Shown: positions 32,966 to 48,636 of the stretch, one piece after another
Numbering within the stretch: position 1 is the stretch's first letter
Layout: the number at the start of each line of letters is the position of its first letter
Source: Comamonas sp. 26
GTDB lineage: Bacteria; Pseudomonadota; Gammaproteobacteria; Burkholderiales; Burkholderiaceae_C
Length of the DNA stretch: 64,000 nt
Reading direction: 5' to 3'
Assembly (NCBI RefSeq): GCF_002754475.1
Contig: NZ_PEFL01000001.1
Span: forward strand, 3,065,461 to 3,129,460
The notes under the pieces: generated by a model
What the model saw: the letters and a program-made list of their open reading frames with translations, nothing else
What the model was told of the DNA's origin: nothing
Database searches by the model: none
Program-made: the position numbers and the translations under genes

Positions 32966-33916
32966 TCAGGCCTCGGGCTTTTCCAGCTCAAAGCCCGCCG
33001 CCTCCCAGGCGGACAGTCCCCCGGTCAAGGGCCGTACATTGTGAAATCCCGCACGCTGCAATTGCCGGGCCACACGCGCAGCGGAGATCTCGTCGGGACA
33101 GTCGCAATACACCACCAGGCCATGCTCATGCTGCTCGCGCGGCAGCAAATGTTCGTAGGCCGGCCTGCCCTTGCCCTGGTGTTCCAGCCAGGAACTGGCT
33201 CCAGGAATATGACCCTGACCGAATAGCAGGGGTTCGCGCACATCGATCACCGTCGGTGTCGTGCCCCGGGCATTGAGCCCCGCCAGTTCTTCGACCGACA
33301 TGCGCGGCATCTTCAGCGAGCGCACCACGCGCTGTCTCTGCCACCACTTGCGTGCCACGAACACGGCAAACGCCACCGCTAGCAGCAGCAGCCCCCATTT
33401 GCCCAGCGCCGTCAGCACATCGAGCAAATCCTCCACGGTGGAGCTGAACAGCGAGCCCAGAAACACGGCCGAGCCAACCCAGATCAGGGCCCCCAGCGTA
33501 TCGAAAAGCACAAAGGTGCGAAAAGGCGTGCCCACCACGCCGGCCAGGGCACTGGCGATGGAGGCAAAACCCGGCACGAACTTGGCCACCAGCAAGGACT
33601 TGGCACCCCAGCGGCCGTACACAGATTCCGTCTGGCGAATGCAGGCATCAGGCGAGAGCGAGATGCGGCAGATCTGCCCCAGCACCTTTTGCCCATAGGC
33701 CTTGCCCGCGCGATACCAGAGCACATCCGCAATCAGGGCTGCAACCACGGCAATCAGCGTAAGCAAGCCCAGCCGCGCCATGCTTGTGCCCTCCAGCGCG
33801 CCCGTCACTACCAGCACCGGATAAGCTGGAATGGGTGCCCCCATCTGCTCAATCAGCACATTGAGAAAAACAATGCCGAAGCCGTATTCCCGAATCAGAT
33901 CCACGACAAAGCCCAT
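32966..33916 (-). CDS. DedA-family membrane protein fused to a rhodanese domain
   Basis: 316 residues. Residues 1-200 form a DedA/VTT membrane domain (FVPGFASIASALAGVVGTPFRTF is the conserved segment) with a helix near 175-195. Residues about 210-310 form a cytoplasmic rhodanese domain with TVIDVREPLLFGQGHIPGA and the active loop VYCDCPDEISAARVA, where one Cys is the likely nucleophile. DedA proteins act in lipid-carrier recycling and membrane homeostasis; the fusion adds sulfur transfer or sensing. It converges on the rhodanese/YeeE operon. Confidence 0.9.
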   Translation of the reverse strand: MGFVVDLIREYGFGIVFLNVLIEQMGAPIPAYPVLVVTGALEGTSMARLGLLTLIAVVAALIADVLWYRAGKAYGQKVLGQICRISLSPDACIRQTESVYGRWGAKSLLVAKFVPGFASIASALAGVVGTPFRTFVLFDTLGALIWVGSAVFLGSLFSSTVEDLLDVLTALGKWGLLLLAVAFAVFVARKWWQRQRVVRSLKMPRMSVEELAGLNARGTTPTVIDVREPLLFGQGHIPGASSWLEHQGKGRPAYEHLLPREQHEHGLVVYCDCPDEISAARVARQLQRAGFHNVRPLTGGLSAWEAAGFELEKPEA

Positions 33917-34000: not shown

Positions 34001-34897
34001 TCAAGCCAGATGCAGATGGGACTGGATTGCCTCGAAATGCGCGCTCACATTAAGCGCTGGTGCATGGCCGCAGCCCGGCACCTCCAGCCACGTTAGCAGC
34101 CCTTGGGCACCGGGACCGCGCTGCATCATCTGCTCGGCCACCGGCTTGAGCACCAGATCAGACGCCTCGCCGCGCAGCAGCAGCACAGGCAGTTGCAGCG
34201 CATCATAGTGATCCCAGAGCAGATAGTCGTTGTCGTGCTCGGTGAACTGCTCGATCATGCGCGGGTCGTAATGCGGGGTGATGCGGCCGTCGTCCGTGCG
34301 ACGCGTGCTGGTCTCGGTCAGCTTGCGCCACTCGACATCGCTGAGCCAGCCGTAAGGCTTGTAGGCCGCACGGAAAAAGGCTTCCAGCTCGGCCACGGTG
34401 TCAAACACCGGCGGGCGACCGGCATAGCCTTTGATGCGGGCCAGAGCAGCCTCGGCCAGCTCGGGAGCATTGTCGTTGAGGGTGAGCGTGAGAATACGGC
34501 GCTTGAGATCCGGCTCGAACAGGCCGGACGCGCACACCGTACCGATGGCACCGCCCATGCTGGTTCCCACCCAATGCACCTGCGACAGTGCCAAAGCATC
34601 CATCAACTCACGCGCCAGCCGGGCATAAAACCGCAGCTGGTATTCCTCGCTGGAGTTGCGGCTCCACTGGCTCAGTCCTCGCCCCAACGTATCCGGGCAG
34701 ATGACGCGATAGCCTTGTGCCACGAGAAACTGTGCCAGGGCATCCATATCGCGCCCTGTGCGAGCCAGGCCATGCCAGGCGATCACTGTGGCAACGGGCT
34801 CAGCAGTCGGCTGCCAGTCCATGTAATGAATTTCATAGCCGGCACAGGTGACGTAGCAGGAAGCAGGCTGGAGCAAAAACAAAGCATTCGAACTCAT
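34001..34897 (-). CDS. alpha/beta hydrolase downstream of the liv/phaZ genes
   Basis: 298 residues from ATG 34897 (MSSNALFLLQ); the frame is open to 34993. The oxyanion segment is WHGLARTGRDMD, the nucleophile elbow GTSMGG, and the late His lies in PGCGHAPALN. There is no signal peptide, so it is cytoplasmic. It lies 67 bp after livM on the same strand, separated by a hairpin repeat. From context it may cleave imported 3-hydroxybutyrate oligomers, but the sequence itself supports only a generic esterase/lipase-fold hydrolase. Confidence 0.83.
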   Translation of the reverse strand: MSSNALFLLQPASCYVTCAGYEIHYMDWQPTAEPVATVIAWHGLARTGRDMDALAQFLVAQGYRVICPDTLGRGLSQWSRNSSEEYQLRFYARLARELMDALALSQVHWVGTSMGGAIGTVCASGLFEPDLKRRILTLTLNDNAPELAEAALARIKGYAGRPPVFDTVAELEAFFRAAYKPYGWLSDVEWRKLTETSTRRTDDGRITPHYDPRMIEQFTEHDNDYLLWDHYDALQLPVLLLRGEASDLVLKPVAEQMMQRGPGAQGLLTWLEVPGCGHAPALNVSAHFEAIQSHLHLA

Positions 34898-34910
34898 GAT
34901 TTTTAAATGA

Positions 34911-34953
34911 AATTGGCCGAAGCGCTTATCTATCAAACGCTTGCAGCTATCAA
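34911..34953. repeat. dispersed intergenic hairpin repeat, copy 4
   Basis: AAGCGCTTATCTATCAAACG plus CTTGCAGCTATCAAAT. It is between livM and the hydrolase gene. The stem AGCGCTT/AACGCTT carries one mismatch. Confidence 0.62.
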
Positions 34954-34964
34954 ATCCAAAGTGA

Positions 34965-36038
34965 TTACGGCTTGTGCGACAGCACCGCTGCACGCAGCCG
35001 CCCCACTAACCCGGTGGGGAAGTAATAGACCGAGAGCACAAACAGCAGACCCAGCCACAACAGCCAGCGATCCGGTGACAGCAGAGCCGACAGCCATGGC
35101 AGGCCGACTGCCGCTTCGCTGCCGATGCGCAGCAAATCCTGCAGATAGCTTTGCGCGACGAGAAAGATGACGGAGCCAATCACCGCGCCATAAATCGTGC
35201 CCATGCCGCCAATGACGACGATGAGCAGGCAGTCCATCATGATCTCGAAGGACAGCGTGGTGTCGGGGCCGTTGTAGCGCAGCCAGACGGCCAGCATGGC
35301 ACCGGCCACGCAGGCGAACAGGGCCGAGAGCACGCTCGACGTGGTGCGGTAAACCACCACGCGGTAGCCAATGGCCTCGGCACGGAATTCGTTCTCGCGG
35401 ATGGCCTGCAGCACACGGCCAAAGGGCGAGTTGACGATGCGCAGCAGCATCAGCACCAGCAGCAGGGCCAGTACAAACAGCAGGTAGTAGCTGATGATCT
35501 TGCCGTCGACGAGCACGCCAAAGATTTCGTTCTCGAACGGCTCGAAGCTAGGCGACAGCCATTCGGGCATCTTGAAGGTCAGGCCGTCTTCGCCCCCCGT
35601 CCAGTCGGACAGCTGCGAAGCCAGGGTCTGAAATGCCGCCGCGACAGCCAGCGTGATCATGGCAAAGAAGATGGCGCGCACACGCAGCGAGAACAGGCCG
35701 ATGGCCAGCGACAAGACCAGCGACACCAGCAGCGCCGCACCCAGTCCCAGCGCCAGTGCGCCCCAGCCAGCTCCCAGCTTGCTGGATGCAATGGCTACGC
35801 CATAGGCACCTATGCCGAAAAACATGGTGTGGGCAAAGCTGACGATGCCGGTATAGCCCAGCAGCAGATCAAAGCTGGCCACCAGCACCACAAAGATCAC
35901 GACCTTGGCCGCGACATTGAGCGCCTTGACGCCCGGAAAGACAAACGGTGCCACGGCCAGGCCAATAAAAATGACCAGCAGCAGCACCGCCAAAATGCGG
36001 CTACGCGGTAGATCGCCGGAGAGCAAACGATTGAGCAT
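34965..36038 (-). CDS. livM: branched-chain amino acid type ABC permease (LivM family)
   Basis: 357 residues from ATG 36038, preceded by AAGGAG; a GTG three codons upstream is also in frame. About ten membrane segments, with the LivM-type segment GYTGIVSFAHTMFFGIGAYG and the cytoplasmic loop RVLQAIRENEFRAEAIGY that couples to the ATPase. It pairs with the LivH-type permease 12 bp upstream. A non-amino-acid substrate is possible given the phaZ gene in the cluster. Confidence 0.9.
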   Translation of the reverse strand: MLNRLLSGDLPRSRILAVLLLVIFIGLAVAPFVFPGVKALNVAAKVVIFVVLVASFDLLLGYTGIVSFAHTMFFGIGAYGVAIASSKLGAGWGALALGLGAALLVSLVLSLAIGLFSLRVRAIFFAMITLAVAAAFQTLASQLSDWTGGEDGLTFKMPEWLSPSFEPFENEIFGVLVDGKIISYYLLFVLALLLVLMLLRIVNSPFGRVLQAIRENEFRAEAIGYRVVVYRTTSSVLSALFACVAGAMLAVWLRYNGPDTTLSFEIMMDCLLIVVIGGMGTIYGAVIGSVIFLVAQSYLQDLLRIGSEAAVGLPWLSALLSPDRWLLWLGLLFVLSVYYFPTGLVGRLRAAVLSHKP

Positions 36039-36050
36039 GGTGTCCACTCC

Positions 36051-37034
36051 TTAGCGATTGGCGACGGGAAAGACGCCTTGTGGGCGCCACAGCAGGATGG
36101 CGACCATGAGTGCAATATTGGAAAACAGCGCCACCTTGGGAGCTAGAAAGCCCGTGTAGTTGGCCATCAGCCCTACCAGCAGCGACCCGATCAACGCGCC
36201 GCCCGTGCTGCCCAGGCCACCGATGATGATGACGATGAAGATCAGCACATTGACCTGCGCGCCCATCTGCGGAATCACGTTCTGCTGGTACAGCCCCCAC
36301 ATCACACCACCCAGCCCGGCCAGGGCCGAGCCCGCCACAAACACGCCGATGAACAGGTTGCGCACGCGGTAGCCCAGGGCTTCAACCATCTCGCGATCCT
36401 GCACGCCGGCGCGGATCAGCAACCCCAGCTTGGTCCGCGTCAACGTCCAGAACAGCACGGCAAACACCAGCGCACCCACCAGCACGGCAAACACGCGGTA
36501 TTTCTCCACGGCCGCATCACCCAGCAACCACGCGCCTTTCATCGCCTCGGGCAAGGGCAGCGGAATTTGCTGCGGGCCCCAGATGACCTTGATCAGCTCT
36601 TCACCAATGATCATGCCGCCCATGGTGATGAGAATCTGCTTGAGATGCTGACCATAGACGGGGCGCACGATAAAGCGCTCGAATGCCAGCCCCACGGCGC
36701 CAGCCACCAGCATCGCGACCAGCATGGCGGGAAACACCGCCACCAGATTGCGCCAGAGCTGGTCCGACCCCGTCCAGTCGCCCATGGCGCCGAGTACGCT
36801 GGTGGCCACAAAAGCGCCCAGCGCGATGAACACGCCATGGCCAAAGTTAAGCACATCCATGAGGCCGAACACCAGCGTCAGGCCCGAAGCGATGATGAAG
36901 ATGATCATGCCCATGGCCAGGCCGGCCACGGTGAGCGTCAGCCAGGTGCTGGGCGAGCCCACCAGCGGCAAGGTGACCAGTGCCAGCAGCGGCACCAGCA
37001 ACAGCGGCTTGTAATCCATGTCCTTGAAACTCAT
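36051..37034 (-). CDS. livH: branched-chain amino acid type ABC permease (LivH family)
   Basis: 327 residues with about eight membrane segments. It shows the LivH signature DVLNFGHGVFIALGAFVA and the coupling loop AGVQDREMVEALGYRVRNLF. It forms a heterodimeric channel with the following permease. Confidence 0.9.
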   Translation of the reverse strand: MSFKDMDYKPLLLVPLLALVTLPLVGSPSTWLTLTVAGLAMGMIIFIIASGLTLVFGLMDVLNFGHGVFIALGAFVATSVLGAMGDWTGSDQLWRNLVAVFPAMLVAMLVAGAVGLAFERFIVRPVYGQHLKQILITMGGMIIGEELIKVIWGPQQIPLPLPEAMKGAWLLGDAAVEKYRVFAVLVGALVFAVLFWTLTRTKLGLLIRAGVQDREMVEALGYRVRNLFIGVFVAGSALAGLGGVMWGLYQQNVIPQMGAQVNVLIFIVIIIGGLGSTGGALIGSLLVGLMANYTGFLAPKVALFSNIALMVAILLWRPQGVFPVANR

Positions 37035-37070
37035 GCAAGCGCCCTCCAGCTGCGTGTCAACGCTTTCATA

Positions 37071-37118
37071 TTCATAGCTTCTTGCTTATACTGGATAATC
37101 ACTTGCGGCATTTTTGAT
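37071..37118. repeat. dispersed intergenic hairpin repeat, copy 5 (degenerate)
   Basis: TTCATAGCTTCTTGCTTATA followed by CTGGATAATCACTTGCGGCA and TTTTTGAT, in the livF-livH gap. The outline matches the family (ATAGCT...CTTAT...AT...CTTGC) but the stem is poor. Confidence 0.4.
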
Positions 37119-37128
37119 GTAATTTTTC

Positions 37129-37863
37129 TCATAACGACAAGCCCAGCAGCGACTGCTGCAGCTGCGCATCGGCCGCCAGATCCGCCATGCGCCCCGCGTG
37201 AATCACACGGCCGTTGTCCATCACCGCCACGCCGTCACCCAGACGTTTGGCAAAGTCGATGTTCTGCTCCACCAGCAAGATGCTCACGCCGCTGGCCTTG
37301 AGCTGGGCAAAGGCCGCGATCATGTTGTTGATGATGGCGGGAGCCAGGCCCTTGCTGGGCTCGTCGACGATGAGCAGATCGCGCGGCTCGACAATCGCGC
37401 GGGCCACAGCCACCATCTGTTTTTGCCCGCCGCTGAGCTTGCCCGCAGGCGCATTCCAGAACTTCTGCACGGCAGGAAAAAGCTGGTAAATCCAGTCCAG
37501 TCGTGCCCCATCCATCTGGCCCGCATGGGCGGCAGCGCGAGCGGCCAGAAGCAGGTTCTCCTTGACCGTGAGATCGGCGAAGATGCCCATGTTCTCGGGA
37601 ACATAGGCAATATTGAGGCGTGCAATGGCCGGCGTGGACAGCTGGCTGATGTCCTTCTCCCCAAACTGAATGCGGCCCTGGCTGGCCTGCCACAGACCCA
37701 TGATGGTGCGCAGCGTCGTGGTCTTGCCAGCGCCGTTGCGGCCCAGCAGCATGGTGACCTCGCCACGCGGCACCACCAGATCCACGCCATGCAGTATGTG
37801 ATAGGCACCGATATGGGTGTGAACGCCGGACAGCTGCAACAAAGCGGTGGCGGTATTGCTCAT
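37129..37863 (-). CDS. livF: branched-chain amino acid type ABC ATPase (LivF family)
   Basis: 244 residues with Walker A GRNGAGKTTTLRTIMG, signature KLSGGQKQMVAVARAI, Walker B LLIVDEPSKGLAP and switch-His-region SILLVEQN. It overlaps livG by 4 bp (ATGA), so the two ATPases are translationally coupled. Confidence 0.93.
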   Translation of the reverse strand: MSNTATALLQLSGVHTHIGAYHILHGVDLVVPRGEVTMLLGRNGAGKTTTLRTIMGLWQASQGRIQFGEKDISQLSTPAIARLNIAYVPENMGIFADLTVKENLLLAARAAAHAGQMDGARLDWIYQLFPAVQKFWNAPAGKLSGGQKQMVAVARAIVEPRDLLIVDEPSKGLAPAIINNMIAAFAQLKASGVSILLVEQNIDFAKRLGDGVAVMDNGRVIHAGRMADLAADAQLQQSLLGLSL

Positions 37864-38633
37864 ACGTCCTCCTTCACGGCATTGCCAAGATAGGCCTGCT
37901 GCACCACGGGCGATGCAATGACTTCGGCCGGCTTGCCATCGGCCACCAGTTGCCCATTGGTCAGCACGATGATGCGGTCGGCCAGCTCCCGCACCACGTC
38001 CATCTTGTGCTCCACCAGCAGGATGATCTTGCTGCGGTCTTTTTTGAGTTCGCGTATCAGGTCCAGAATCACCGGCGCCTCGTCATGGCTCATGCCCGCC
38101 GTGGGCTCGTCAAACATATAGACCTGAGGCTCCAGCGCCATCAACAGCGCCACCTCCAGCTTGCGCTGGTCGCCATGCGGCAGGCTGGCGACAACGGTAT
38201 CAGCACGCTCGGACATGGAGACCTTGTCCAGGATTTGCTGTGCCCGTTGCGTGACGGCCCGGTGATCGCTCCAGATGCTCCAGAGGTTCAGGCCCCGGCG
38301 ATGCGGCCCTGCCATGCTGGCCTGCACCGCCAGGCGCACGTTCTCCCGCACGCTCAGATTGGGAAAGAGATTCGTGAGCTGAAAGGCCCGACCCAGCCCG
38401 GCACGCGTGCGCGCCGAAGCAGGCAGCCCCGTCAGGTCGCGCGCCCCCAGAGTAACCGTGCCGGAGCTGGCCTTGAGCTGGCCTGAGATCAGGTTGAAAT
38501 AGGTGGTCTTCCCTGCGCCATTGGGGCCCACGATGGCCGTGAGCGTGCCCGGCTCGAACGAGCAGGTTACAGCGCTCACGGCCACATGGCCGCCAAAGCG
38601 GATGGTGAGATCTTTAGTTGCCAGAATGCCCAT
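37860..38633 (-). CDS. livG: branched-chain amino acid type ABC ATPase (LivG family)
   Basis: 257 residues with Walker A GPNGAGKTTYFNLISG, the LivG-type FQLTNLFPNLSVRENVRLA, Walker B YMFDEPTAGMSHDE and HKMDVVRELADRI. It starts 39 bp after the phaZ stop on the same strand, so depolymerase and importer genes are probably co-transcribed. Confidence 0.93.
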   Translation of the reverse strand: MGILATKDLTIRFGGHVAVSAVTCSFEPGTLTAIVGPNGAGKTTYFNLISGQLKASSGTVTLGARDLTGLPASARTRAGLGRAFQLTNLFPNLSVRENVRLAVQASMAGPHRRGLNLWSIWSDHRAVTQRAQQILDKVSMSERADTVVASLPHGDQRKLEVALLMALEPQVYMFDEPTAGMSHDEAPVILDLIRELKKDRSKIILLVEHKMDVVRELADRIIVLTNGQLVADGKPAEVIASPVVQQAYLGNAVKEDV

Positions 38634-38672
38634 GAAAGCGGATCTTTCCTTCTCGTTGCGTGCGGCGGCTGC

Positions 38673-40214
38673 TCAGGGGCAGGTTCCGATCACGTAGTAG
38701 TTGCTGCCGGTCTGCTTCAGCGTGGTGGTGTAGAACACGTTCCACAGGCCCATGTTCTGCGCCGAGCCGTTGGCATAGGCATAGCCGCCCTGCTGATAGG
38801 CGCGATTGGCCTGTACATGGGCGTAGTTGCTGGCCGTGGTACAGGTACCAGCAGGACTGCTGCCGGTCAGTGTCGAAGCACTCACCGCAGCAGAATCGGC
38901 ACTCTCGGCACCATTGCCGTCCACAGCCCGTACCGTCCAGCTATAGCTGGTGGAGGGACTCAGTGCCGAGTCGACATAGCTGGTGGCATAGACCGTGAGC
39001 GCATTGGCCTTGTTGCCGTTGCGATAGACGTTGTAGCCCGCAGCACTCGTCACGGGGCCCCAGTCCAGTTGCATGCTGGTGCTGGTGGCGACAGACGCAC
39101 CCAGTCCCGTGGGTGCTGCCAGGGCCGGTTGGGTCGGAGTACCTCCGCCGGTCCCACCACCGGTGCCCGAGCCTGTGCCGGAGGCAATGCGGTCGATCAT
39201 GGCCTTGATGGCCGTCATCTGCACGCCGCTCTTTTGCGCGAAATTGTTGCCATACCAGCCTATCCAGTCCCAGCAGGCATTGGGATTGGCCAGCGAACCG
39301 CTCTTGCTCGTGCTGCGGTTGTTGTTGTCCACCTGGGTCTGCGGATACAGCACGATGATGTTGTTGGTATCCGCCCAGCGGCTGAAGCCGGTGTTCCTGA
39401 CGAACTTGTCGCCGATCTTGTCGGTGCTCTGCTGGCAGCCGTGCAGCACCACATGCAGCTTGCACTGCGTGCCGCTCGCGCAGCTTTGCGGCACGTACAG
39501 CCAGCCGGTGCTGGCCATGCCCGGATTGGCATTGGAATAGGCCGACTGGTTGAACTCGATGTAGTTGCCGCTGGCCGGAGCAGCGTTGCGCGGATTGAGC
39601 GCGCCATAGAAATGCGTGAGCACGGCCTTGGCGCCGTCATAGCCGCAATTGCTGATGTAGGGCGAAGCACTGCTGCTGCAGGCGTTGTTGCCGCTGCTGT
39701 CGAAGTCGGTGGGCAGAACATGGGCTGCACCCGAGCGCTTGACATAGGCGATGTTGGCTTGCGGCACTGCGTTGTTGAGGTACTGGGTTTGCAGCGCATC
39801 GGTGAGATTCGGGCCCACCGTGTAGTCGCTGGTGCCCGTGAAGATGTAGATCTTCTGCGCCGCTATCCGGCTCTTGGCATCGATGCTTGCGGCGCTGCTG
39901 TAGCTGTCAATGCTGCTTTGCATGGCATTGAGCTGTGCGCTCGTGATGCTGGCGTTGTACATGCAGGCCGTGTAATTGTTCAGGCCCGCACACATATATG
40001 GACCCGCAGCAAAGATGCCCACCCCCATGAAGGTTGCCGAATAGGCATTGCCCAGCTGGTTCGCCATGAAGCCACCCGACGACAGGCCCGACACGCTGAT
40101 CTGGTCGGTGGCAATGTTGTATTGCCCCAGCGGCACGGCCGCCCCCGCAGCCATGTTCACGCCGCCCCATAGCGCCAGGGCGGCAACACCACTTCTCCAG
40201 GATTGAACTCGCAT
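38673..40214 (-). CDS. phaZ: extracellular poly(3-hydroxybutyrate) depolymerase
   Basis: 513 residues, close to the Comamonas enzymes. Sec signal (residues 1 to about 25, ending AAGAA). The catalytic domain has its lipase box early, VSGLSSGGFMANQ with the likely nucleophile Ser45, the arrangement of type 2 PHB depolymerases. An Asp region FTGTSDYTVG and a His region VVLHGCQQS follow. A Gly/Thr linker near 355 leads to a fibronectin type III domain (about 370-455) and a C-terminal domain of about 50 residues with YAHVQANRAYQQGGYAYANG, the likely polymer-binding part. It hydrolyses extracellular PHB granules to 3-hydroxybutyrate and short oligomers. It is placed between the binding-protein and ATPase genes of a Liv importer. 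Confidence 0.93.
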   Translation of the reverse strand: MRVQSWRSGVAALALWGGVNMAAGAAVPLGQYNIATDQISVSGLSSGGFMANQLGNAYSATFMGVGIFAAGPYMCAGLNNYTACMYNASITSAQLNAMQSSIDSYSSAASIDAKSRIAAQKIYIFTGTSDYTVGPNLTDALQTQYLNNAVPQANIAYVKRSGAAHVLPTDFDSSGNNACSSSASPYISNCGYDGAKAVLTHFYGALNPRNAAPASGNYIEFNQSAYSNANPGMASTGWLYVPQSCASGTQCKLHVVLHGCQQSTDKIGDKFVRNTGFSRWADTNNIIVLYPQTQVDNNNRSTSKSGSLANPNACWDWIGWYGNNFAQKSGVQMTAIKAMIDRIASGTGSGTGGGTGGGTPTQPALAAPTGLGASVATSTSMQLDWGPVTSAAGYNVYRNGNKANALTVYATSYVDSALSPSTSYSWTVRAVDGNGAESADSAAVSASTLTGSSPAGTCTTASNYAHVQANRAYQQGGYAYANGSAQNMGLWNVFYTTTLKQTGSNYYVIGTCP

Positions 40215-40257
40215 GCTTTGTCTCCGTGAATCTGTGAAATAGGAATGAGCAATGCCA

Positions 40258-40319
40258 GCCCTCGTGTTTCCGAGGGTTCATCAATTGAGAGGACGGGTCG
40301 AACCGGGAAGATTTCCCGG
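40258..40319. other. two hairpins between the binding-protein gene and phaZ
   Basis: CCGGGAA-GAT-TTCCCGG (40303-40319) and CCCTCG/CGAGGG around GTGTTTC-type loop sequence (40258-40276). Neither has a terminal T-run on the minus strand. They may stabilise the binding-protein message or reduce read-through into phaZ. Confidence 0.5.
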
Positions 40320-40324
40320 CTGGT

Positions 40325-41512
40325 TCAGCGCTGATTGCGAACGGGAACCTTCATTTCTTCAGGCTTGATCTCGCGCACCAGTTCTGGAACGCCCCAGGCC
40401 ATGGCCGGGTCGTTCTTGATCCTGAAGTGGTACATGCTCTGCATGGCCTGGTGATCTTCCTTGCGGAACGTCATGACACCTTTGGGCGTATCAAAACTCA
40501 TGCCTTCCATGGTCTTGATCAAGGTGTTGGTCTTGGTGTCGCCACTGGTCTTCTTGAGTGCCGTGACGATGGCCATGGCGGCCGAGAAGCCACCAGCCGT
40601 GAAGAAGTCCGGCGGAGCCTTGTACTGCTTGTAGCTCATGGCGACCATGGCCTCGTTCACCGGGTTCTTGGGAATGCCGAAGTAGTAGTAGGTCGCCCCC
40701 TCCATGCCCGGCAGGTTCTTGTAGGCGGCCATGGCGGGCAGGATGTTGCCGCCGGTGGCGATCTCGATGCCGTAGCGCTTGAGGTCCATGTCGGCAATCT
40801 TGAAGGGGTTGCCAGCCCCGGCCCAGACCACCCAGATCACCTTCTTGCCCGGAACATCCTTGAGCCTGTCGATCAGGCGCTGGGCTCCGGCCGTGAAGTC
40901 GGTGGTGGCAGCGGGCAGATATTCCTCATGCACCAGCTTGCCCTTTTTCACGGCTTCCTTGAAAGCCTTGACACCGTCGCGACCAAAGGCATTGTCCTGG
41001 GCCAGCGTGGCAATCTGAACGCCGGGCTTGTCGATGGCCACCGCATTGCTGATCGCGTCCTGGCTGGAGTTGCGGCCGGTGCGGAAGATGTACTTGTTCC
41101 ACTTGTCGCCCGTGATCGAGTCTGCCACCGCCGGCTCGACGAGCAGAATTTTCTTGTATTCCTCAGCCACGGGCAGCATCGCCAGGGCCACTCCCGATGA
41201 GCTAGGGCCCACCGCCAGGTCCGCCTTGTCGTCCGAATAGGCCGCAGCCAGCAGACTCTTGCCTAGGTCGGGCTTGCCCTGGTCGTCCTTTTCGATCACG
41301 ACAAGCTTCTTGCCTGCCACTGTCATGCTGCCGCCCGTGGCATACTCCAGCCCCATCATCAGCCCCGCCTGCGTCTGTTTGCCGTAGGCCTCCAAAGGCC
41401 CGGTCTTGCTATAGACATGGGCGATGCGGATTTCGGATTGAGCCAGAGCGCCCGGAACATGGGCGACCATGGCGGCCAGAGCCGCGAACTGCAGCAGGCT
41501 GCGCTTGTGCAT
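40325..41512 (-). CDS. ABC transporter substrate-binding protein, LivK-like (type I fold)
   Basis: 395 residues from ATG 41512 (MHKRSLLQFAAL), preceded by CAAGGAG; the frame is open to 41611. Sec signal ends at GALAQ. The mature protein starts SEIRIAHVYSKTGPLEAYGKQ, the Peripla_BP_6 fold used for branched-chain amino acids, aromatic acids, amides and other small molecules. LAVGPSSSGVALAM is the ligand-binding loop. It is the first gene after a sigma-54 promoter and is followed by phaZ and livGFHM. A 3-hydroxybutyrate or oligomer ligand is inferred from context only. Confidence 0.9.
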   Translation of the reverse strand: MHKRSLLQFAALAAMVAHVPGALAQSEIRIAHVYSKTGPLEAYGKQTQAGLMMGLEYATGGSMTVAGKKLVVIEKDDQGKPDLGKSLLAAAYSDDKADLAVGPSSSGVALAMLPVAEEYKKILLVEPAVADSITGDKWNKYIFRTGRNSSQDAISNAVAIDKPGVQIATLAQDNAFGRDGVKAFKEAVKKGKLVHEEYLPAATTDFTAGAQRLIDRLKDVPGKKVIWVVWAGAGNPFKIADMDLKRYGIEIATGGNILPAMAAYKNLPGMEGATYYYFGIPKNPVNEAMVAMSYKQYKAPPDFFTAGGFSAAMAIVTALKKTSGDTKTNTLIKTMEGMSFDTPKGVMTFRKEDHQAMQSMYHFRIKNDPAMAWGVPELVREIKPEEMKVPVRNQR

Positions 41513-41571
41513 GTATTGTCTCCTTGAGGATGTTTGCGGTGGTTCCGCTTGTACTTGTATGGTGAGCAGAT

Positions 41572-41587
41572 AGCAGTCTTCGTGCCA
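41572..41587 (-). promoter_or_regulatory. sigma-54 (-24/-12) promoter before the binding-protein/phaZ/liv genes
   Basis: On the minus strand TGGCACGAAGACTGCT. The consensus is TGGCACG-N4-TTGCW, so the -24 element is perfect, GG and GC have the required spacing, and one base of the -12 element differs (CTGC for TTGC). The predicted start is about 50 bp before ATG 41512. A sigma-54 activator gene lies 3.2 kb upstream in the same cluster. Confidence 0.75.
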
Positions 41588-41639
41588 GTCTGGTTTTCCT
41601 CTGGAGAGCATGCATGCACAGCTTGCAACTGTTCAAAAA

Positions 41640-41675
41640 TCAGACAGAAATGCCTTGAATTCAGACATTGCCTGA
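41640..41675. promoter_or_regulatory. two operator-like repeats (candidate activator sites)
   Basis: TCAGACAGAAATGCCTTGA (41640-41658) and TCAGACATTGCCTGA (41661-41675) share the frame TCAGACA...TGCCT-GA; the second is a near-perfect 15-bp palindrome (TCAGRCA-N-TGYCTGA). They lie about 80-115 bp upstream of the predicted sigma-54 start, the normal position for bacterial enhancer-binding protein sites. Confidence 0.55.
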
Positions 41676-41735
41676 TTCAAAGACACTTCACCGGGCTCGC
41701 GCCGTGGACGCTTCCCGGCCTCAAGCAAGCCGCAA

Positions 41736-41763
41736 TGAAAAAAGGATCACCGAGGTGATCCTT
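41736..41763 (-). terminator. terminator after the amidohydrolase gene
   Basis: On the minus strand GGATCACCTCGGTGATCC followed by TTTTTTCATT, a compact intrinsic terminator 8 bp after the amidohydrolase stop. It isolates the AACS/amidohydrolase unit from the sigma-54 unit downstream. Confidence 0.85.
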
Positions 41764-41770
41764 CTTGCTA

Positions 41771-42652
41771 TCACGCGGCATCGCGTTTTTTGTCGAATTC
41801 GAGCAGGCGCACGGCATTGTCCTTGAGGATGCCGGGCATGACCTCGGGCTTGAAACCGGCGACCTCGAAGTCCTTCATCCAGCGCTCGGGCGTGATCAGC
41901 GGGAAGTCGCTGCCGAAGAGAACACGATCTTTCAGCAAGGTGTTGGCGTACTGCACCAGCTGCTTGGGGAAATACTTGGGGCTCCAGCCCGACAGATCAA
42001 TCCAGACATTGGGCTTGTGCAGCGCCACCGAGATCGCCTCGTCCTGCCAGGGAAAGCTGGGGTGGGCCATGACGATCTGCATATCGCCGAAATCCACAGC
42101 CACGTCGTCCAGCAGCATGGGGTTGCTGTAGGCCAGACGCAGGCCGCCGCCGCACTTCATGCCACTACCGATGCCGCTGTGGCCGGTGTGGAAGATGGCG
42201 GGCAGCTTGTAGTGGTTGATGACCTCGTAGATGGGCCAGGCCATGCGGTCGTAGGGATGGAAGCCCTGCACCGTGGGATGGAACTTGAAGCCCTTGACGC
42301 CGCATTCGGTGATCAGGCGCTCGGCCTCGCGCGCACCCATCTTGCCCTTGTGCGGGTCGATGCTCGCGAACGCCACCATCATGTCGCTGTTCTCGCGCGC
42401 GGCATCGGCAATCTCTTCGTTGGGAATGCGGCGGCGGCCCAGTTGCGCCTCGCTGTCCACCGTGAACATCACCAGACCGATCTTGCGCTCGCGGTAATAA
42501 GCAATGGTTTCGGCGATCGTCGGGCGCAGCGAGCTGCCGAAGTATTTGTCGGCCGCGCGGTCGTACTCCTCGCCATAGCTGTCAAAGGGATTGCGGCAGC
42601 TGACTTCGGCATGGGTGTGGAAGTCGATGGCGATCAAATCTTGATGGTTCAT
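41771..42652 (-). CDS. amidohydrolase family metal-dependent hydrolase/decarboxylase
   Basis: 293 residues, TIM-barrel amidohydrolase-2 family. Metal ligands: His-x-His in AIDFHTHAEV, the His in AIFHTGHSG, the His of IVMAHPSFPWQDE and the Asp in LFGSDFPLITPERW. Relatives include gamma-resorcylate and aminocarboxymuconate semialdehyde decarboxylases and lactone hydrolases, so decarboxylation or C-N/C-O hydrolysis are both possible. It is 47 bp downstream of the acetoacetyl-CoA synthetase gene. The substrate is unknown. Confidence 0.85.
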   Translation of the reverse strand: MNHQDLIAIDFHTHAEVSCRNPFDSYGEEYDRAADKYFGSSLRPTIAETIAYYRERKIGLVMFTVDSEAQLGRRRIPNEEIADAARENSDMMVAFASIDPHKGKMGAREAERLITECGVKGFKFHPTVQGFHPYDRMAWPIYEVINHYKLPAIFHTGHSGIGSGMKCGGGLRLAYSNPMLLDDVAVDFGDMQIVMAHPSFPWQDEAISVALHKPNVWIDLSGWSPKYFPKQLVQYANTLLKDRVLFGSDFPLITPERWMKDFEVAGFKPEVMPGILKDNAVRLLEFDKKRDAA

Positions 42653-42699
42653 GGGTGGGTCTGCTTTGGGTATTGAGTCAAATCAGCCTCAAGCGCTTG

Positions 42700-44688
42700 T
42701 CACGCCTGCGGCACCTGCTCTCGAAATTGAATAAAGAAATCAATGCTGGACGGATTGACCATGGCATCGGGGCTGGCCACCTTGGCGGCGTCCGCCCCCA
42801 GCAGCAGCTTGCGCACAGGCACTTCCATCTTCTTGCCCGTGAGGGTGCGCGGAATCTCGGCCACTTGCACCACCACATTGGGCACATGGCGTGCCGAAGC
42901 CTTGGTCTTGATGGCGTTCTTGATCTGGGCAGTCAGCTCGCCCGTCAATGCCTGGCCTTCGGCCAGGGTCACGAACAGCGGCATGAAGGAAGGTCGGCCC
43001 AGGTATTCGAGGTCGACCACCAGGCTGTCCTTGACGGCGTCGAGCTCCTCGACGACACGGTAAATCTCTGCCGTGCCCATGCGTATGCCGAAGCGGTTGA
43101 TGGTGCTGTCCGAGCGCCCGTAGATCACGGCCGTTCCGCGCTCGCTGAATTCGATCCAGTCGCCATGACGCCAGTAGCCGGCAAACACATCGAAATAGCT
43201 GTCGTAGTAGCGCGCGCCGCTCTCGTCGTTCCAGAAGAACACGGGCATGGAGGGCATGGGCTCGGTAATCACCAGCTCGCCGACTTCGGCAACCACCTTC
43301 TGCCCCTGTTCGTTGAAGGCGTGGGCCGCCACGCCCAGTTCGCGGCACTGAATCTCGCCCGCATTGACCGGCAGTATGGGAGCGCAGGCCACAAAGCCCG
43401 AGGCGATATCCGTGCCGCCGCTGATCGAGGCCAGCCATAGATCGCTTTTGACGTTCTCATAGACCCAGGCATAGGCATCGAGAGGCAGCGGCGAGCCCGT
43501 GGAGTTGATGGCACGCAGCTTCTCGAACTGGCGCCCCTTCTTCGGCGAGACACCATCCTTCATGCTCTTGATGAGGAAGGCCGCACCGCAACCAAAGATG
43601 CTGACCTGGTATTGGTCTATGAAGTCCCAGAGCGCATCATCATGGGGCGCCGTCGGATTGCCGTCGGACAGGACCACGGTCGCGCCAGCCAGCAGGCTGC
43701 CTATCATCAGATTCCAGACAATCCAGCCCGTGCTGCCAAGGAACATGAAGCGATCGCCGGGCAACACATCGTGCTGCAGGCGATTGGTCTTCAGGTGCGT
43801 GAGCACAATGCCGCCATGGCTGTGCACCATGGCCTTGGGCAGGCCGGTGGTTCCCGAGGAGTACACCACCCATAGCGGATGGGAGAACGGCAGGCGCTCG
43901 AACTGCAGCGGCGCTGCATGGTGCGTTGCCTCGTCCCAGCGCATGCAGTCACGCCAGGGCACGTCCGCATGCTCGGCATCGCTGCCGAACAAGGGCCCCG
44001 GCACATGAATCACCCGGGCGATATCGGGCAGACCCTGGAGCACTTCGTTCAGCACCTCACGGCGATCGAACCGTTTGCCAGCATAGGTATAGCTGTCGGT
44101 CGCAAAAATCAGCTTGGGGGCAATCTGCTGGAAGCGGTCCAGCACCACGGATACGCCCATCTCCGGCGCGCAACTGGACCAGATGGCGCCAATGCTGGCA
44201 CAGGCCAGAAACGCCACCACGGTCTGCGGCACATTGGGCAGATAGGCCACCACACGATCGCCAGGCCCAATGCCCAGACCGCGCAGGCTTGCCGCCAGGG
44301 CACCCACATCGCGCTGCAGCTGCTGCCAGGAGACTTCGACCGGAGCATGGCCCTCGCAGCGCGCAATGATGGCCGGGCGCTGATCGCTGGCCTGGCGGAA
44401 GATATGCTCGGCATAGTTGAGCCGGGTGTCGGGAAACCACTGAGCACCCGGCATCTTGCGGCCGGCCAGCACCTGCGTCGGGTCACCATCGGCCTGAATC
44501 TCGAAGTAGTCCCAGATCGAGCGCCAAAAGCCTTCGATATCGGTGGCCGACCATTGCCACAGCGCCTCATAGTCGGAGCAGTCACGGCCACGGCTGTCGC
44601 GCAGCCAGTTCATGTAATGCCACAGGCCGCTTTGCTCCTGCTGTTGCTGCGTGGGCCTCCACAATTCTTGCCCTTGTACCAATGCCAT
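42700..44688 (-). CDS. acetoacetate-CoA ligase (acetoacetyl-CoA synthetase)
   Basis: 662 residues, the usual length of AACS-type enzymes, which activate acetoacetate with ATP and CoA. Adenylation motifs: VYSSGTTGLPKAMVHSHGG, FLGSTGWIVWNLMIGSLLAGA, YGRSDSTINRFGIRMGTAEIY and the C-terminal catalytic Lys in PRTLTGKKMEVPVRKLL. The N-terminal WQWSATDIEGFWRSIWDYFE is typical of AACS rather than acetyl-CoA synthetase. With an extracellular PHB depolymerase in the same cluster, it fits the route 3-hydroxybutyrate to acetoacetate to acetoacetyl-CoA. Confidence 0.9.
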   Translation of the reverse strand: MALVQGQELWRPTQQQQEQSGLWHYMNWLRDSRGRDCSDYEALWQWSATDIEGFWRSIWDYFEIQADGDPTQVLAGRKMPGAQWFPDTRLNYAEHIFRQASDQRPAIIARCEGHAPVEVSWQQLQRDVGALAASLRGLGIGPGDRVVAYLPNVPQTVVAFLACASIGAIWSSCAPEMGVSVVLDRFQQIAPKLIFATDSYTYAGKRFDRREVLNEVLQGLPDIARVIHVPGPLFGSDAEHADVPWRDCMRWDEATHHAAPLQFERLPFSHPLWVVYSSGTTGLPKAMVHSHGGIVLTHLKTNRLQHDVLPGDRFMFLGSTGWIVWNLMIGSLLAGATVVLSDGNPTAPHDDALWDFIDQYQVSIFGCGAAFLIKSMKDGVSPKKGRQFEKLRAINSTGSPLPLDAYAWVYENVKSDLWLASISGGTDIASGFVACAPILPVNAGEIQCRELGVAAHAFNEQGQKVVAEVGELVITEPMPSMPVFFWNDESGARYYDSYFDVFAGYWRHGDWIEFSERGTAVIYGRSDSTINRFGIRMGTAEIYRVVEELDAVKDSLVVDLEYLGRPSFMPLFVTLAEGQALTGELTAQIKNAIKTKASARHVPNVVVQVAEIPRTLTGKKMEVPVRKLLLGADAAKVASPDAMVNPSSIDFFIQFREQVPQA

Positions 44689-44722
44689 GCTGTCTCCGGA
44701 CTCAAATTAGATATTTTTTATA

Positions 44723-44750
44723 ACTATAAAAACAAATAGAGTCCTCTCAA
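44723..44750 (-). promoter_or_regulatory. candidate sigma-70 promoter of the acetoacetyl-CoA synthetase gene
   Basis: On the minus strand TTGAGA (44745-44750) and TATAGT (44723-44728) are separated by 16 bp, each one mismatch from consensus, in an unusually A/T-rich gap. The predicted start is about 30 bp before the ATG. Confidence 0.5.
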
Positions 44751-44773
44751 CCAAGGACAATCCCTAGCAAGGC

Positions 44774-46315
44774 TTAGAAATTCAGCTTCTCCAGCCTGTC
44801 ATAGAGCTTGGCTCGCGATATGCCGAGAGCCTTGGCGACCGCCAGCTTGTTGCCCGCATGCGCCTGCATGGCCGCCCGTATCGCACGGGCTTCAAGTTCG
44901 GCCATCTGCTCGGACAGCGGCCTGATGAGTTCACCGGCCACCGGCTGTTGGACAAGCGGCTCCTGCGTCAGCGGCAGCGATAACCGATGTGAAGGAGCTA
45001 GTGGCTCGACCCCGGAAGAGCGCAGCACCTGCGCCAGCAGTCCGGCATCGATATGCGAGTCATCACAGCGCATGGCAGCTTGTTCCAGCACATTGCGCAG
45101 CTCGCGAATATTGCCGCGCCAGGCCTGTGCGACCAGCAGTTCCAGCACCCCACGGCCCAGCTCCGGTGGCGCCATGTCATTGCGCAGCGCCAGATCCTCG
45201 CACAGCATTTCCACCAGCGCGGGAATATCGCTGCTGCGCTGCCTCAACGGTGGCACATGCACCGGCAGCACATGCAGTCGGTAGAAAAGGTCTTCTCTGA
45301 ACAAGCCATCGCGCACCATCTGCAGCAGATCGCGAGAGGTGGCGGCCACCACCCGGGCATCGAAATGCACGATCTGGTTGGAACCCAGTGGTTCGATCTC
45401 CCCCTCCTGCAAGGCACGCAACAATTTGGCCTGCAAGCTCGCAGGCATGTCACCGATCTCATCGAGAAACAAGGTTCCGCCATCGGCCAGCTTGAATTTG
45501 CCATCGCGCGCTTTGCGGTCGGCGCCGGTAAATGCACCAGGAACCACGCCAAAGAACTCGGCCTCCAGCAAGGCTTCAGGAATGGCGGCGATATTGACGG
45601 TGACAAACGGCCCCAGGGATCGTGTCGAAGCAGCATGGATGGCATGGGCCAGCACTTCTTTGCCGGTACCTGTCTCGCCCAGCAACAAAACCGGACTCAT
45701 GGACTGAGCCGCGCGCCGGGCCTGGCGCTTGACCTCCACTGCCGCCGGGCTGCTGCCCACAAAGCTGGCGAAGCTGTATTTGCTGCGACGCGCACCTTGC
45801 ATGGACACCTTCAGGCTGCGGCTGCGCTGGGTGGCAAGCTCCCGCCTGGCTTCGTCCAGATCGCGCTGCAGTCTCGCGAACTTGCTGATCAAAGGCTGCA
45901 AAGTGGTTTCAGGCTGGTCGAACAGCACAATGCCGATGGCGCCGATCACGCCCCCCTCATCGTCATGCAGCGGCAGACGGCTCACGACAAACGTGCCCGC
46001 ACTGTTGGTCAGCAAATCGATCAAAACAGGTTTGCCGGTTTCCAGAACACCACGCATCTGGGTGTTGGGAATAACCTCATCCACCAGATGTCCGAGAAAG
46101 TCGCCGACACCAGCCATACCCAGCCGGGGAAGAAAGCGTTCATACCCTTTGTTGACCCAGACAATGCGCCCGGTTCTGTCAACCAGAAACATGCCCTGGC
46201 TCATCGAGGAGAATAGCTGAAACATGGAACGCGCCGCCAAGGCATAAATGCCGTCGGCATCTTCAGGCAGCTGGGAAGCGAAGTCGTTGGGTGCCAGTTG
46301 GCTCATTTCCATCAT
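44774..46315 (-). CDS. sigma-54-dependent transcriptional activator with PAS domain
   Basis: 513 residues from ATG 46315; a TTG ten codons upstream and ATGs at 46312 and 46306 are also in frame, and no ribosome binding site decides. Domains: N-terminal PAS sensor (about 25-130, SMSQGMFLVDRTGRIVWVNKG), then an AAA+ domain with Walker A GETGTGKEVLA, the sigma-54 contact loop GAFTGA, Walker B GGTLFLDEIGD and the arginine-finger region WRGNIRELRNVL. A C-terminal Fis-type helix-turn-helix follows (GNKLAVAKALGISRAKLYDR). It is just upstream of the AACS gene and is the likely activator of the -24/-12 promoter at 41572. Confidence 0.93.
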   Translation of the reverse strand: MMEMSQLAPNDFASQLPEDADGIYALAARSMFQLFSSMSQGMFLVDRTGRIVWVNKGYERFLPRLGMAGVGDFLGHLVDEVIPNTQMRGVLETGKPVLIDLLTNSAGTFVVSRLPLHDDEGGVIGAIGIVLFDQPETTLQPLISKFARLQRDLDEARRELATQRSRSLKVSMQGARRSKYSFASFVGSSPAAVEVKRQARRAAQSMSPVLLLGETGTGKEVLAHAIHAASTRSLGPFVTVNIAAIPEALLEAEFFGVVPGAFTGADRKARDGKFKLADGGTLFLDEIGDMPASLQAKLLRALQEGEIEPLGSNQIVHFDARVVAATSRDLLQMVRDGLFREDLFYRLHVLPVHVPPLRQRSSDIPALVEMLCEDLALRNDMAPPELGRGVLELLVAQAWRGNIRELRNVLEQAAMRCDDSHIDAGLLAQVLRSSGVEPLAPSHRLSLPLTQEPLVQQPVAGELIRPLSEQMAELEARAIRAAMQAHAGNKLAVAKALGISRAKLYDRLEKLNF

Positions 46316-46525: not shown

Positions 46526-48043
46526 CTAGGCGGCGACAGCCTCTCGTGTCTGTTTGGCATCTGCCATGCGCTTGAGGACGCGGGGAACGATCAGCACCGA
46601 CAGCACAATGATGATCAGCGTCAGCGACATGGGGCGCTGCAGGAAAATCCACCAGCTGCCTTCGCCAATCGACACGGCGTTACGCATCTGTGCTTCGGCC
46701 AGAGGGCCCAGAATCATGCCAACCACAACTGGGGCTGTGGGGAAGTCAAAGCGACGCATGATCACGCCCAGCACGCCAATGCCGTAGAGCAGGAACAGAT
46801 CGAATGCGCTCTGGCGCATGCCGTAAGCACCCACCGTTGCGAAGATCAAGATGCCAGCGTACAGCTGAGGACGTGGAATCTTCAGCAGCTTGACCCACAG
46901 GCCGACCATGGGCAGGTTCAGCACCAGCAGCATCACGTTGCCAATGTACAGCGATGCAATCAGCGCCCAGACCAGGGCCGCCGAGGTCGTGAACAGTTGC
47001 GGGCCGGGGTTGATGCCGTAGTTCTGGAATGCACCCAGCAGCACCGCAGTGGTGTTGCTGGTAGGAATGCCCAGCGTCAGCAGAGGAATCAGCGCAGCCG
47101 TCACCGTTGCGTTGTTGGCGGCTTCAGGGCCGGCCACACCTTCAATAGCGCCTTGCTTGCCGAACTCAGCCTTGTCTTCACCCTTGGCCAGCTTCTTTTC
47201 GGTGGCGTAGCTCAGGAAGGTAGGGATCTCGGTACCTCCGGCAGGAATACAGCCAAACGGTGTACCGATGACGGTGCCGCGAATCCAGGCAGGAACAGAG
47301 CGCTTCCAGTCGCGCTTGGTCATGTGCACGCGGGTCAGCTTGTTCTGCGATTCTTCAACCTTGCCTTCGTAGATGGCCGCATACAGCACTTCAGCCACGG
47401 CAAACAGGCCCACAGCCACCAGCACGATGTCGATACCGTCCAGCAGTTCCATCTTGCCGCCGGTGTAACGGGCAGCGCCAGAGATCTGGTCCATGCCAAT
47501 ACAGCCAGCAGCCAGACCGACAAACAGCGCCGTCATACCGCGCAGCGAGCTTTGACCCAGCACCGCACTCACGGTGGTGAAGGCCAGAACCATCAGCATG
47601 AAGTATTCAGGCGGGCCCAGCTTGACGGCAAAGTCAGCCACAAACGGGGCAAACAGCGTGACCACAACCGTGGCAAAAGTACCGGCAAAAAAGGAGCCGA
47701 TCGCCGCCGTAGCCAGCGCCGCACCGGCTCGCCCGCTCTTGGCCATTTTGTTGCCTTCCATGGCCGTGACCATGGAAGCGGTTTCACCGGGCGTATTCAG
47801 CAAGATGGAGGTGGTCGAGCCACCGTACATCGCGCCGTAGTAAATGCCCGAGAAGAAAATCATCGAAGCCGTCACATCCACCTTGGCGGTGATGGGCAGC
47901 AACATCGCCACCGCCACCGCAGGGCCTATGCCGGGCAGCACGCCCACAGCAGTACCCAGCGCGCAACCGACCAGCGCCCACAGCAGATTGACAGGAGTGA
48001 TGGCCGTGGCAAAGCCAGCCATTAGAGCGTTAAAAATATCCAT
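46526..48043 (-). CDS. tctA: tripartite tricarboxylate transporter permease TctA
   Basis: Large membrane component of a sodium/proton-coupled tricarboxylate importer, 505 residues and about ten to twelve helices. ATG 48043 overlaps the tctB stop as TAATG, a coupling arrangement; a GTG three codons earlier is also in frame. Signatures: [22 protein letters not shown] near the start, [15 protein letters not shown], and [20 protein letters not shown]. Confidence 0.95.
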
Positions 48044-48636
48044 TACAGCCACCCCGTCTGAGTCAGGCCCGGCAGATTGATGGCCAGGAATTGGGTAAAC
48101 ATCCAGAACACGGGTGCAGAGATCAGCAGTCCGGTAATCACATCCTTCACCCAGGTGCTGGGTGCAGAGACATTCTTCTCATGGGCTGCGCGGCGCAGGC
48201 CTTGCACGGCCAGCACGTAGCAGATGGTGCAGCTGAAGATGAAGCCAAGCGTGCTGATCAGCGCAGCATTGATCAGCAGGCCTGCAGAGACCCAGACAAA
48301 GGCACCAATGTCAGCCTTGGCACCACCACCGGGGTCGGCTGCATGGCGAAAGCCGCCGGTCTGAGCTTCCCAGATCAGCAAAGCACCACAGATGCCCAGC
48401 ACTGCCGCGCACACCCAAGGCAGAAAGTTGGGGCCTACGCCGCCGTAGCCTGCATCCCCAGGGATTTGCAGCGCGCCAACGGCCAGGCTAATGGCAACCA
48501 GCAGCACGCCACTGCCCACGATGGTTTGCGCCACCTTGGACGGGACATTCGGGCTTTGCGGCTCGTTAGGGTCTGCGTAGGCCGAAACCTGCGCGGCCTC
48601 TGCGGCCTTGGCTAGATCTTGGTAAGAATCAGACAT
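48043..48636 (-). CDS. tctB: tripartite tricarboxylate transporter small membrane subunit TctB
   Basis: 197 residues from ATG 48636 ([15 protein letters not shown]); the frame is open to 48771. After a hydrophilic N-terminus of about 35 residues come four membrane segments, with [21 protein letters not shown] matching TctB. It is coupled to tctA through TAATG. Confidence 0.9.

Follow-up and report, generated by a model that had tools for sequence, protein, structure and literature searches.

Why should a gene for an extracellular depolymerase of poly(3-hydroxybutyrate) (PHB) lie within the operon of an ATP-binding cassette (ABC) importer, and what does that importer carry? The arrangement occurs in a 64,000-nucleotide stretch of DNA from Comamonas sp. 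26 (contig NZ_PEFL01000001.1, positions 3,065,461 to 3,129,460; this whole stretch is hereafter the window), in which the depolymerase gene phaZ is flanked by a Peripla_BP_6 binding-protein gene and livG. A kind of importer usually labelled an amino-acid transporter is here joined to a bioplastic-degrading enzyme in one block, and little direct evidence exists on the uptake step in PHB biodegradation. We propose, with a probability of roughly 0.7, that the locus is an operon under sigma-54 control by which extracellular PHB is scavenged, and that its importer would carry 3-hydroxybutyrate (3HB) and perhaps its short oligomers. The scavenging role is well supported by genomic context, from which we also infer the cargo.

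Pfam, NCBIfam and PDB searches place, all on the minus strand, genes for an activator, an acetoacetyl-CoA synthetase and an amidohydrolase, then a promoter, the binding-protein gene, phaZ, livGFHM and an α/β-hydrolase gene (Table 1). With two permeases, two ATPases and a type I binding protein in one operon, the Liv/HAAT ABC importer set is complete. Gene order, strands and families are as given in an earlier note made from the DNA sequence alone, as is the 39 bp gap between phaZ and livG. That note had proposed a PHB scavenging unit under sigma-54 control; the control, the operon-like layout and the linkage of phaZ hold up, whereas its inclusion of the synthetase does not.

Linkage of phaZ and the importer in the family

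The same draw of 299 family genomes was searched with three queries. The depolymerase gave 69 places in 64 genomes, PF10605 (the 3HB-oligomer hydrolase) gave 101 places in 94, and the binding protein, at an E-value of 1e-100, matched 160 genomes, with 150 places in 148 genomes listed and used. At 38 of the 69 phaZ places a listed binding-protein gene is no more than 2.5 kb away, as against about 0.05 adjacent cases expected from random placement in the 299 genomes; given the relatedness of the species and possibly truncated contigs, such linkage counts are not independent events. Among phaZ places at least 50% identical, 35 of 45 adjoin a listed binding-protein gene, as do 3 of the 24 weaker ones. 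A check of this linkage across relatives, set beforehand and made by direct reading of the fetched regions, found it conserved in 37 of the 45 (the window's own included), the difference arising because the phaZ-adjacent binding-protein copies of genomes G063 and G198 are not among the matches listed. Judged from these gene positions, the linkage of phaZ and the importer is not due to chance.

A recount that merged tandem copies and gene fragments leaves 100 oligomer-hydrolase places, 47 of which lie within 9.5 kb of a listed binding-protein gene. The 148 listed importer operons comprise 20 with both enzymes, 18 with the depolymerase only (including the window), 27 with the oligomer hydrolase only and 83 with neither; the third figure becomes 26 after correcting G063, which has both. 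At the importer, each enzyme is found together with the other more often than expected (odds ratio 3.4, p 0.002), and importer-bearing genomes more often hold phaZ (odds ratio 2.8) and the oligomer hydrolase (2.3).

Predicted sigma-54 promoter and probable activator

A promoter was scored when at least 10 of 12 positions of the −24/−12 element matched within 300 nt upstream, with Markov shuffles as background; loci with a cut binding-protein match or a cut upstream were left out of the promoter and dyad counts. Of 108 distinct family upstreams of the binding-protein gene, many of which were fetched on account of phaZ, 99 contain such a promoter, compared with 3.2% in shuffles, and 17 of the 19 importer-only loci scored also reach 10 of 12 positions. 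The same search before other genes found it only at about the shuffle background: at 4 of 105 depolymerase, 5 of 110 livF (shuffles 2.3%), 3 of 90 activator and 1 of 102 hydrolase genes, and at none of those for livG, livH, livM, the oligomer hydrolase, the second binding protein, the synthetase (0/3), the amidohydrolase (0/3) and tctA. This placement speaks against separate transcripts, as far as sequence can tell. In the window the site falls within a longer open reading frame, so that ATG 41512 is most likely the start of the binding-protein gene.

The family upstreams yielded a 17-base dyad, TGYCTGANNNTYAGRCA. With up to three mismatches it is present at least once in 96 of 109 upstreams and at least twice in 77 (shuffles 3.1% and 0.0%), though the dyad was defined from the very upstreams counted, so that these figures do not test it independently. 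Among 16 loci outside the family, a single one has a copy. The window holds three dyads, located 59-98 bases above the −24 element, with 18 and 21 bases between successive starts. At three mismatches the dyad is no commoner in the window than in shuffles (34 versus a mean of 30), and weight can therefore be given only to the three clustered next to the promoter. A genome-wide search for a dyad regulon gave 245 matches against 110 for a reversed control, with a palindromic pattern, and was not informative.

Among importer loci without phaZ, 32 of 40 have an activator homologue, as do 38 of the 62 named and 32 of the 60 further phaZ loci. The nearby sigma-54 activator is the probable regulator of the operon, and promoter, dyads and activator together fit one sigma-54 transcript driven by it. 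Sigma-54 control, as first suggested for the window, is supported by predicted elements that are conserved in relatives; if true, the likely regulator and its sites can be named.

A constant core with two optional enzyme sites

The loci were mapped in 62 named and 100 further regions. Their usual order, with variable members in parentheses, is activator, binding protein, (depolymerase), livG, livF, livH, livM, (3HB-oligomer hydrolase), (second binding protein) and hydrolase. The binding protein is present in 41 and the four liv genes in 39 of the 62 named phaZ loci, and in 39 and 38, respectively, of 60 further phaZ regions; 13 of the latter duplicate named ones, and distinct sequences were counted once for depolymerases, N-termini or motifs, and promoters. 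By its recurring gene order and promoter, the operon is a real conserved unit.

PhaZ of the window is a type 2 extracellular depolymerase of short-chain-length polyhydroxyalkanoates (scl-PHA). Its lipase box, GLSSGG, lies near the N terminus (residues 43-48), where S45, which we take to be the catalytic serine, aligns with the serine that is alanine in PDB 2d81. A signal peptide is recognizable by eye and is accompanied by an Fn3 domain (fn3, 29.6 bits, cut-off 25); C-terminal to this domain, where the substrate-binding domain would be expected, the Pfam search of PhaZ reported no family. As a detector, PF10503 (Esterase_PHB) misses the enzyme (21.1 bits, cut-off 23), and the NCBIfam type 2 model finds it.

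Of 109 distinct depolymerases, 68 occupy the importer site and 35 lie in other places; the remaining 6, at contig ends, are compatible with the site. In a tree of 107 rows, built by a quick method with long branches flagged and the short L084 and L089 dropped, 15 changes are needed between in-site and elsewhere, and the in-site enzymes form two main clades plus isolated divergent rows, with identity down to 33%. Acidovorax loci have livGFHM 79-88% identical to those of the window and a depolymerase only about 53% identical, whereas in Hydrogenophaga (L037, L039 and L041) livG and livF are 69-72% and the depolymerase 64-67% identical. Because these identities disagree, the depolymerase gene at this position appears to have been exchanged.

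The second optional enzyme, the oligomer hydrolase, is represented by no PF10605 match in the window genome or in control genomes, yet relatives do match. Among the mapped loci, the N terminus could be read in 62 distinct oligomer hydrolases, and 53 of these carry a lipobox-like motif, mostly LAAC then GG; those of L055 and L109 (TAACGG) and L184 (LGACGG) are just off the pattern, and those of L054, L056, L059, L112, L150 and L183 have none. Such N termini point to hydrolysis outside the cytoplasm, probably before import, and so to the monomer as the main cargo. The lack of an oligomer hydrolase in the window genome likewise makes the monomer the likelier cargo.

As the earlier note had suggested, the importer could instead carry linear 3HB oligomers, not the monomer alone, which the cytoplasmic α/β-hydrolase would split. 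It would fit this idea that the window genome, without an oligomer hydrolase, retains an α/β-hydrolase in which inspection of N termini by eye found no signal peptide, and that this gene is found at all 20 loci with importer and oligomer hydrolase and at 16 of the 20 with the importer only, some of which are truncated by contig ends. We nevertheless consider it unlikely, as the window hydrolase scores just 33.9 bits on the intracellular PHA depolymerase model (cut-off 300) and the lipobox-like enzymes of relatives would have cleaved the oligomers before import.

Several loci depart from the usual layout. In L165 (3311-5050(-)), an unrelated carboxylesterase (PF00135) with the lipobox-like N-terminal sequence LMLVACGGSDD fills the oligomer-hydrolase site. 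A second Peripla_BP_6 gene lies between the oligomer hydrolase and the α/β-hydrolase in L094, L095, L117, L125 and others; for the copy in L074, the closest solved relative is 3lop. L042, L103 and L121 have the binding-protein gene in two tandem copies ahead of the depolymerase.

Binding protein and cargo

The AlphaFold model of the binding protein (mean predicted local distance difference test score (pLDDT) 93.5) matches RPA4397 (PDB 3n0x) with a template-modelling (TM) score of 0.96 and 70% identity. Judged by their titles, which are cut, the nearest liganded folds are complexes with p-hydroxybenzoic acid and related compounds at 22-28% identity, with leucine and urea complexes lower. In LivJ, we take T102, Y202 and E226 to be amino-acid contacts and S79 to be the carboxylate contact. 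Not one of 104 binding proteins from the family and 15 others, gaps included, retains any of the first three (the window has V, G and I), and S79 is kept in all 119. EPAVAD and GGNI-type motifs are near invariant among the binding proteins, and nearly alike inside and outside the family. The three missing contacts speak against binding of amino acids only, and a carboxylate ligand appears plausible from the alignment and model. The linkage described above leads us to propose the protein as a 3HB binder.

No importer subunit reaches a Liv or Urt NCBIfam cut-off among the matches listed. A urea importer (Urt) was considered and rejected, with UrtA-E equivalog scores below cut-off (for example, UrtE 214.5 versus 285.8). 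These results also bear on the simplest alternative, an ordinary branched-chain amino-acid importer into which a depolymerase gene was inserted by chance. The annotation of the transporter family favors it, but the missing contacts, the unmet cut-offs and the repeated linkage with diverse depolymerases and the oligomer hydrolase make it very improbable.

A broader specificity is harder to dismiss. The importer might take up short-chain hydroxy- or keto-acids, or other monocarboxylates, in general, with 3HB as just one cargo; phaZ and the oligomer hydrolase would then be two among several extracytoplasmic esterases feeding it. This reading overlaps with uptake of 3HB for PHB scavenging, so that the likelihoods given to the two are not exclusive. 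In its favor are the 83 of 148 listed importer operons with neither enzyme, the carboxylesterase of L165, the binding-site motifs that hardly differ beyond the family, the aromatic monocarboxylates bound by the nearest liganded folds and the neighbors of L209, a locus outside the family, which include a hydrolase, an enoyl-CoA hydratase and an acyl-CoA ligase. In the mapped loci, however, the only enzyme families that recur at the optional sites are, by annotation, PHB depolymerase and 3HB-oligomer hydrolase, and we lean somewhat against general uptake. A 3HB importer serving PHB scavenging remains the reading that we prefer.

Importers outside the family

Several observations weigh against PHB scavenging. 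The strongest doubt comes from the importer operons with neither PHB enzyme nearby: those fetched mostly retain operon and promoter, so the cargo need not be PHB-specific. The 35 distinct depolymerases outside the importer site also count against it. In a phylum sample of 398 genomes, 23 have a match, and 16 loci outside the family were examined. All 16 have the binding protein and 15 have livGFHM; none has phaZ or a sigma-54 site within 300 nt upstream, and one has the oligomer hydrolase (L201, after an acyl-CoA ligase). GGDEF/EAL proteins flank the importer in L202:2526-5666(-) and L205:10909-12654(-), loci of another class. In an order sample of 300 genomes, 25 have the oligomer hydrolase; 18 of 28 listed places outside the family were fetched, and only 2 (L226 and L229) are near a full Liv set, the other 16 having none. 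Outside the family, L203 and L207 have an 11-of-12 sigma-54 match about 305 nt upstream, beside an activator homologue of 44% identity.

The Liv set of L226 and L229 differs from the window importer, the binding protein of L226 being 26% identical to that of the window and 67% to that of L229. L226:3669-15605 combines this second Liv-type importer with an oligomer hydrolase, a type 2 depolymerase, a porin and a further binding protein. In L229:8970-18545(-) it lies beside an oligomer hydrolase, with an acyl-CoA ligase too, and inside the family L102:9198-17492(-) has it beside a depolymerase, together with a chemotaxis-receptor-like gene and a sigma-54 activator. These three closely read loci suggest that a second, distantly related Liv-type importer joined PHB enzymes independently. 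Comparison of match lists also places binding-protein genes of this second importer's family near an oligomer hydrolase in G182, G077, G034 and G075. Used as a standalone query, this binding-protein family proved generic and multi-copy (196 of 299 genomes), and its linkage rests on the three loci together with these places.

A wider formulation, to which we would give slightly less than even odds, is that the operon is a modular system for scavenging polyesters. Its constant part would be an ABC importer for 3HB under sigma-54 control, combined with two optional sites, one for a secreted depolymerase and the other for a surface lipoprotein, either oligomer hydrolase or another esterase. Importer-only lineages would live on the monomer of their neighbors, and the second importer (L226, L229 and L102) would have joined independently.

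Proposed pathway

In the pathway envisaged here, the PAS-containing activator would bind the dyads above the −24/−12 promoter and switch on one transcript for the binding protein, depolymerase, livGFHM and hydrolase. The secreted depolymerase would free 3HB and short oligomers; in relatives, a usually lipoprotein-like 3HB-oligomer hydrolase would complete cleavage outside the cytoplasm. Through the Liv-type importer, (R)-3HB would enter the cell, perhaps along with dimers or trimers that might be split by the cytoplasmic α/β-hydrolase. Conversion of 3HB into acetoacetate would fall to a 3HB dehydrogenase whose gene lies at another place in the genome (TIGR01963, 353.5 bits, cut-off 307), and the neighboring synthetase could activate acetoacetate in the C. 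testosteroni group.

If true, a substrate would be assigned to the importer of 160 of the 299 sampled family genomes, within a transporter family named for branched-chain amino acids, and a genetic marker would tell PHB degraders from monomer scavengers. The presence of the operon in Comamonas and many relatives suggests a route for taking up the building blocks released from PHB.

Locus layout and neighboring genes

Table 1. Features of the proposed PHB operon region in the Comamonas sp. 26 window
Feature	Position	Strand	Evidence
Sigma-54 enhancer-binding protein (PAS, AAA+ Sigma54_activat, Fis-type helix-turn-helix)	44774..46315	-	PF00158 219.8, PF02954 37.5, PF08448 31.9 bits
Acetoacetate-CoA ligase	42700..44688	-	TIGR01217 792.9 bits, cut-off 520.9
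Amidohydrolase (Amidohydro_2)	41771..42652	-	PF04909 157.5 bits
Upstream dyad 1, putative activator site	41669..41685	-	2 mismatches to TGYCTGANNNTYAGRCA
Upstream dyad 2, putative activator site	41651..41667	-	2 mismatches to TGYCTGANNNTYAGRCA
Upstream dyad 3, putative activator site	41630..41646	-	2 mismatches to TGYCTGANNNTYAGRCA
Predicted sigma-54 promoter (−24/−12), TGGCACGAAGACTGCT	41572..41587	-	11/12 consensus positions
Periplasmic binding protein (Peripla_BP_6), signal peptide by eye	40325..41512	-	PF13458 175 bits; PDB 3n0x 574.6 bits
phaZ, extracellular type 2 scl-PHA depolymerase	38673..40214	-	NF050059 387.9 bits, cut-off 280; PDB 2d80 (PHB depolymerase) 320.3 bits
livG-type ATPase	37860..38633	-	PF00005, PF12399
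livF-type ATPase	37129..37863	-	PF00005
livH-type permease	36051..37034	-	PF02653 127.8 bits
livM-type permease	34965..36047	-	PF02653 127.6 bits
Short gap, empty in the window; PF10605 gene there in relatives, e.g. L064, L074	34898..34964	-	
α/β-hydrolase (abH), usual last operon gene	34001..34897	-	PF00561 61.3 bits

Among named relatives, the searches place C. testosteroni JL40 (L064) nearest, with block proteins 89-99% identical and the depolymerase 95% identical. ATG 34897 is most likely the start of the α/β-hydrolase gene. Upstream, the synthetase and activator genes are where the earlier note had them, and the amidohydrolase gene between synthetase and binding protein has to be added. 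The synthetase had been counted as a member of the unit. Of the mapped loci, however, the window, L064 and L067 are alone in having synthetase and amidohydrolase next to the importer, and this restricted distribution, with no sigma-54 promoter before the synthetase, led us to exclude the synthetase. On this distribution, both genes are local additions outside the conserved unit. A TctA-like permease gene (46526-48052) adjoins the activator gene, and a similar gene lies near the operon in many relatives. Downstream of the operon is a gene for a VTT-domain membrane protein fused to a rhodanese domain (32966-33916), also seen in some relatives.

Comparison with known systems

The hbtABC genes of Ruegeria pomeroyi encode a tripartite ATP-independent periplasmic (TRAP) transport system. 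A 2023 paper describes hbtABC as the only confirmed bacterial 3HB uptake system (PMC10130141). It shares with the importer proposed here the uptake of 3HB, but consists of three genes (SPO2571-2573), whereas here a Liv-type ABC importer is in one block with a depolymerase. Judged mainly from titles and the openings of abstracts, the searched portion of the open-licence PMC literature describes neither a Liv-type 3HB importer nor this operon; most subscription journals lie outside that scope, and novelty is provisional.

PhaZ of Comamonas testosteroni 31A was produced and assayed as a PHB depolymerase (PMC7142370), and its theoretical mature mass of 50.6 kDa is close to the 50.65 kDa computed here, a likeness in mass only. 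The 3HB-oligomer hydrolase (PF10605) is in the same operon in relatives, whereas the window genome has no match. RPA4397 of R. palustris (PDB 3n0x and 3nnd) has the same fold as the binding protein, with EPAVAD and GGNI also in the alignment; the titles of its structures name no ligand, and it is unmentioned in the main text of PMC3223731 and in the open-licence PMC literature searched.

Similar to the LivJ/K-HMGF system of E. coli (Liv/HAAT), the importer consists of two permeases, two ATPases and a Peripla_BP_6 binding protein. It differs in that three amino-acid contact residues are absent, a polyester hydrolase is encoded in the operon and a predicted sigma-54 promoter precedes it.

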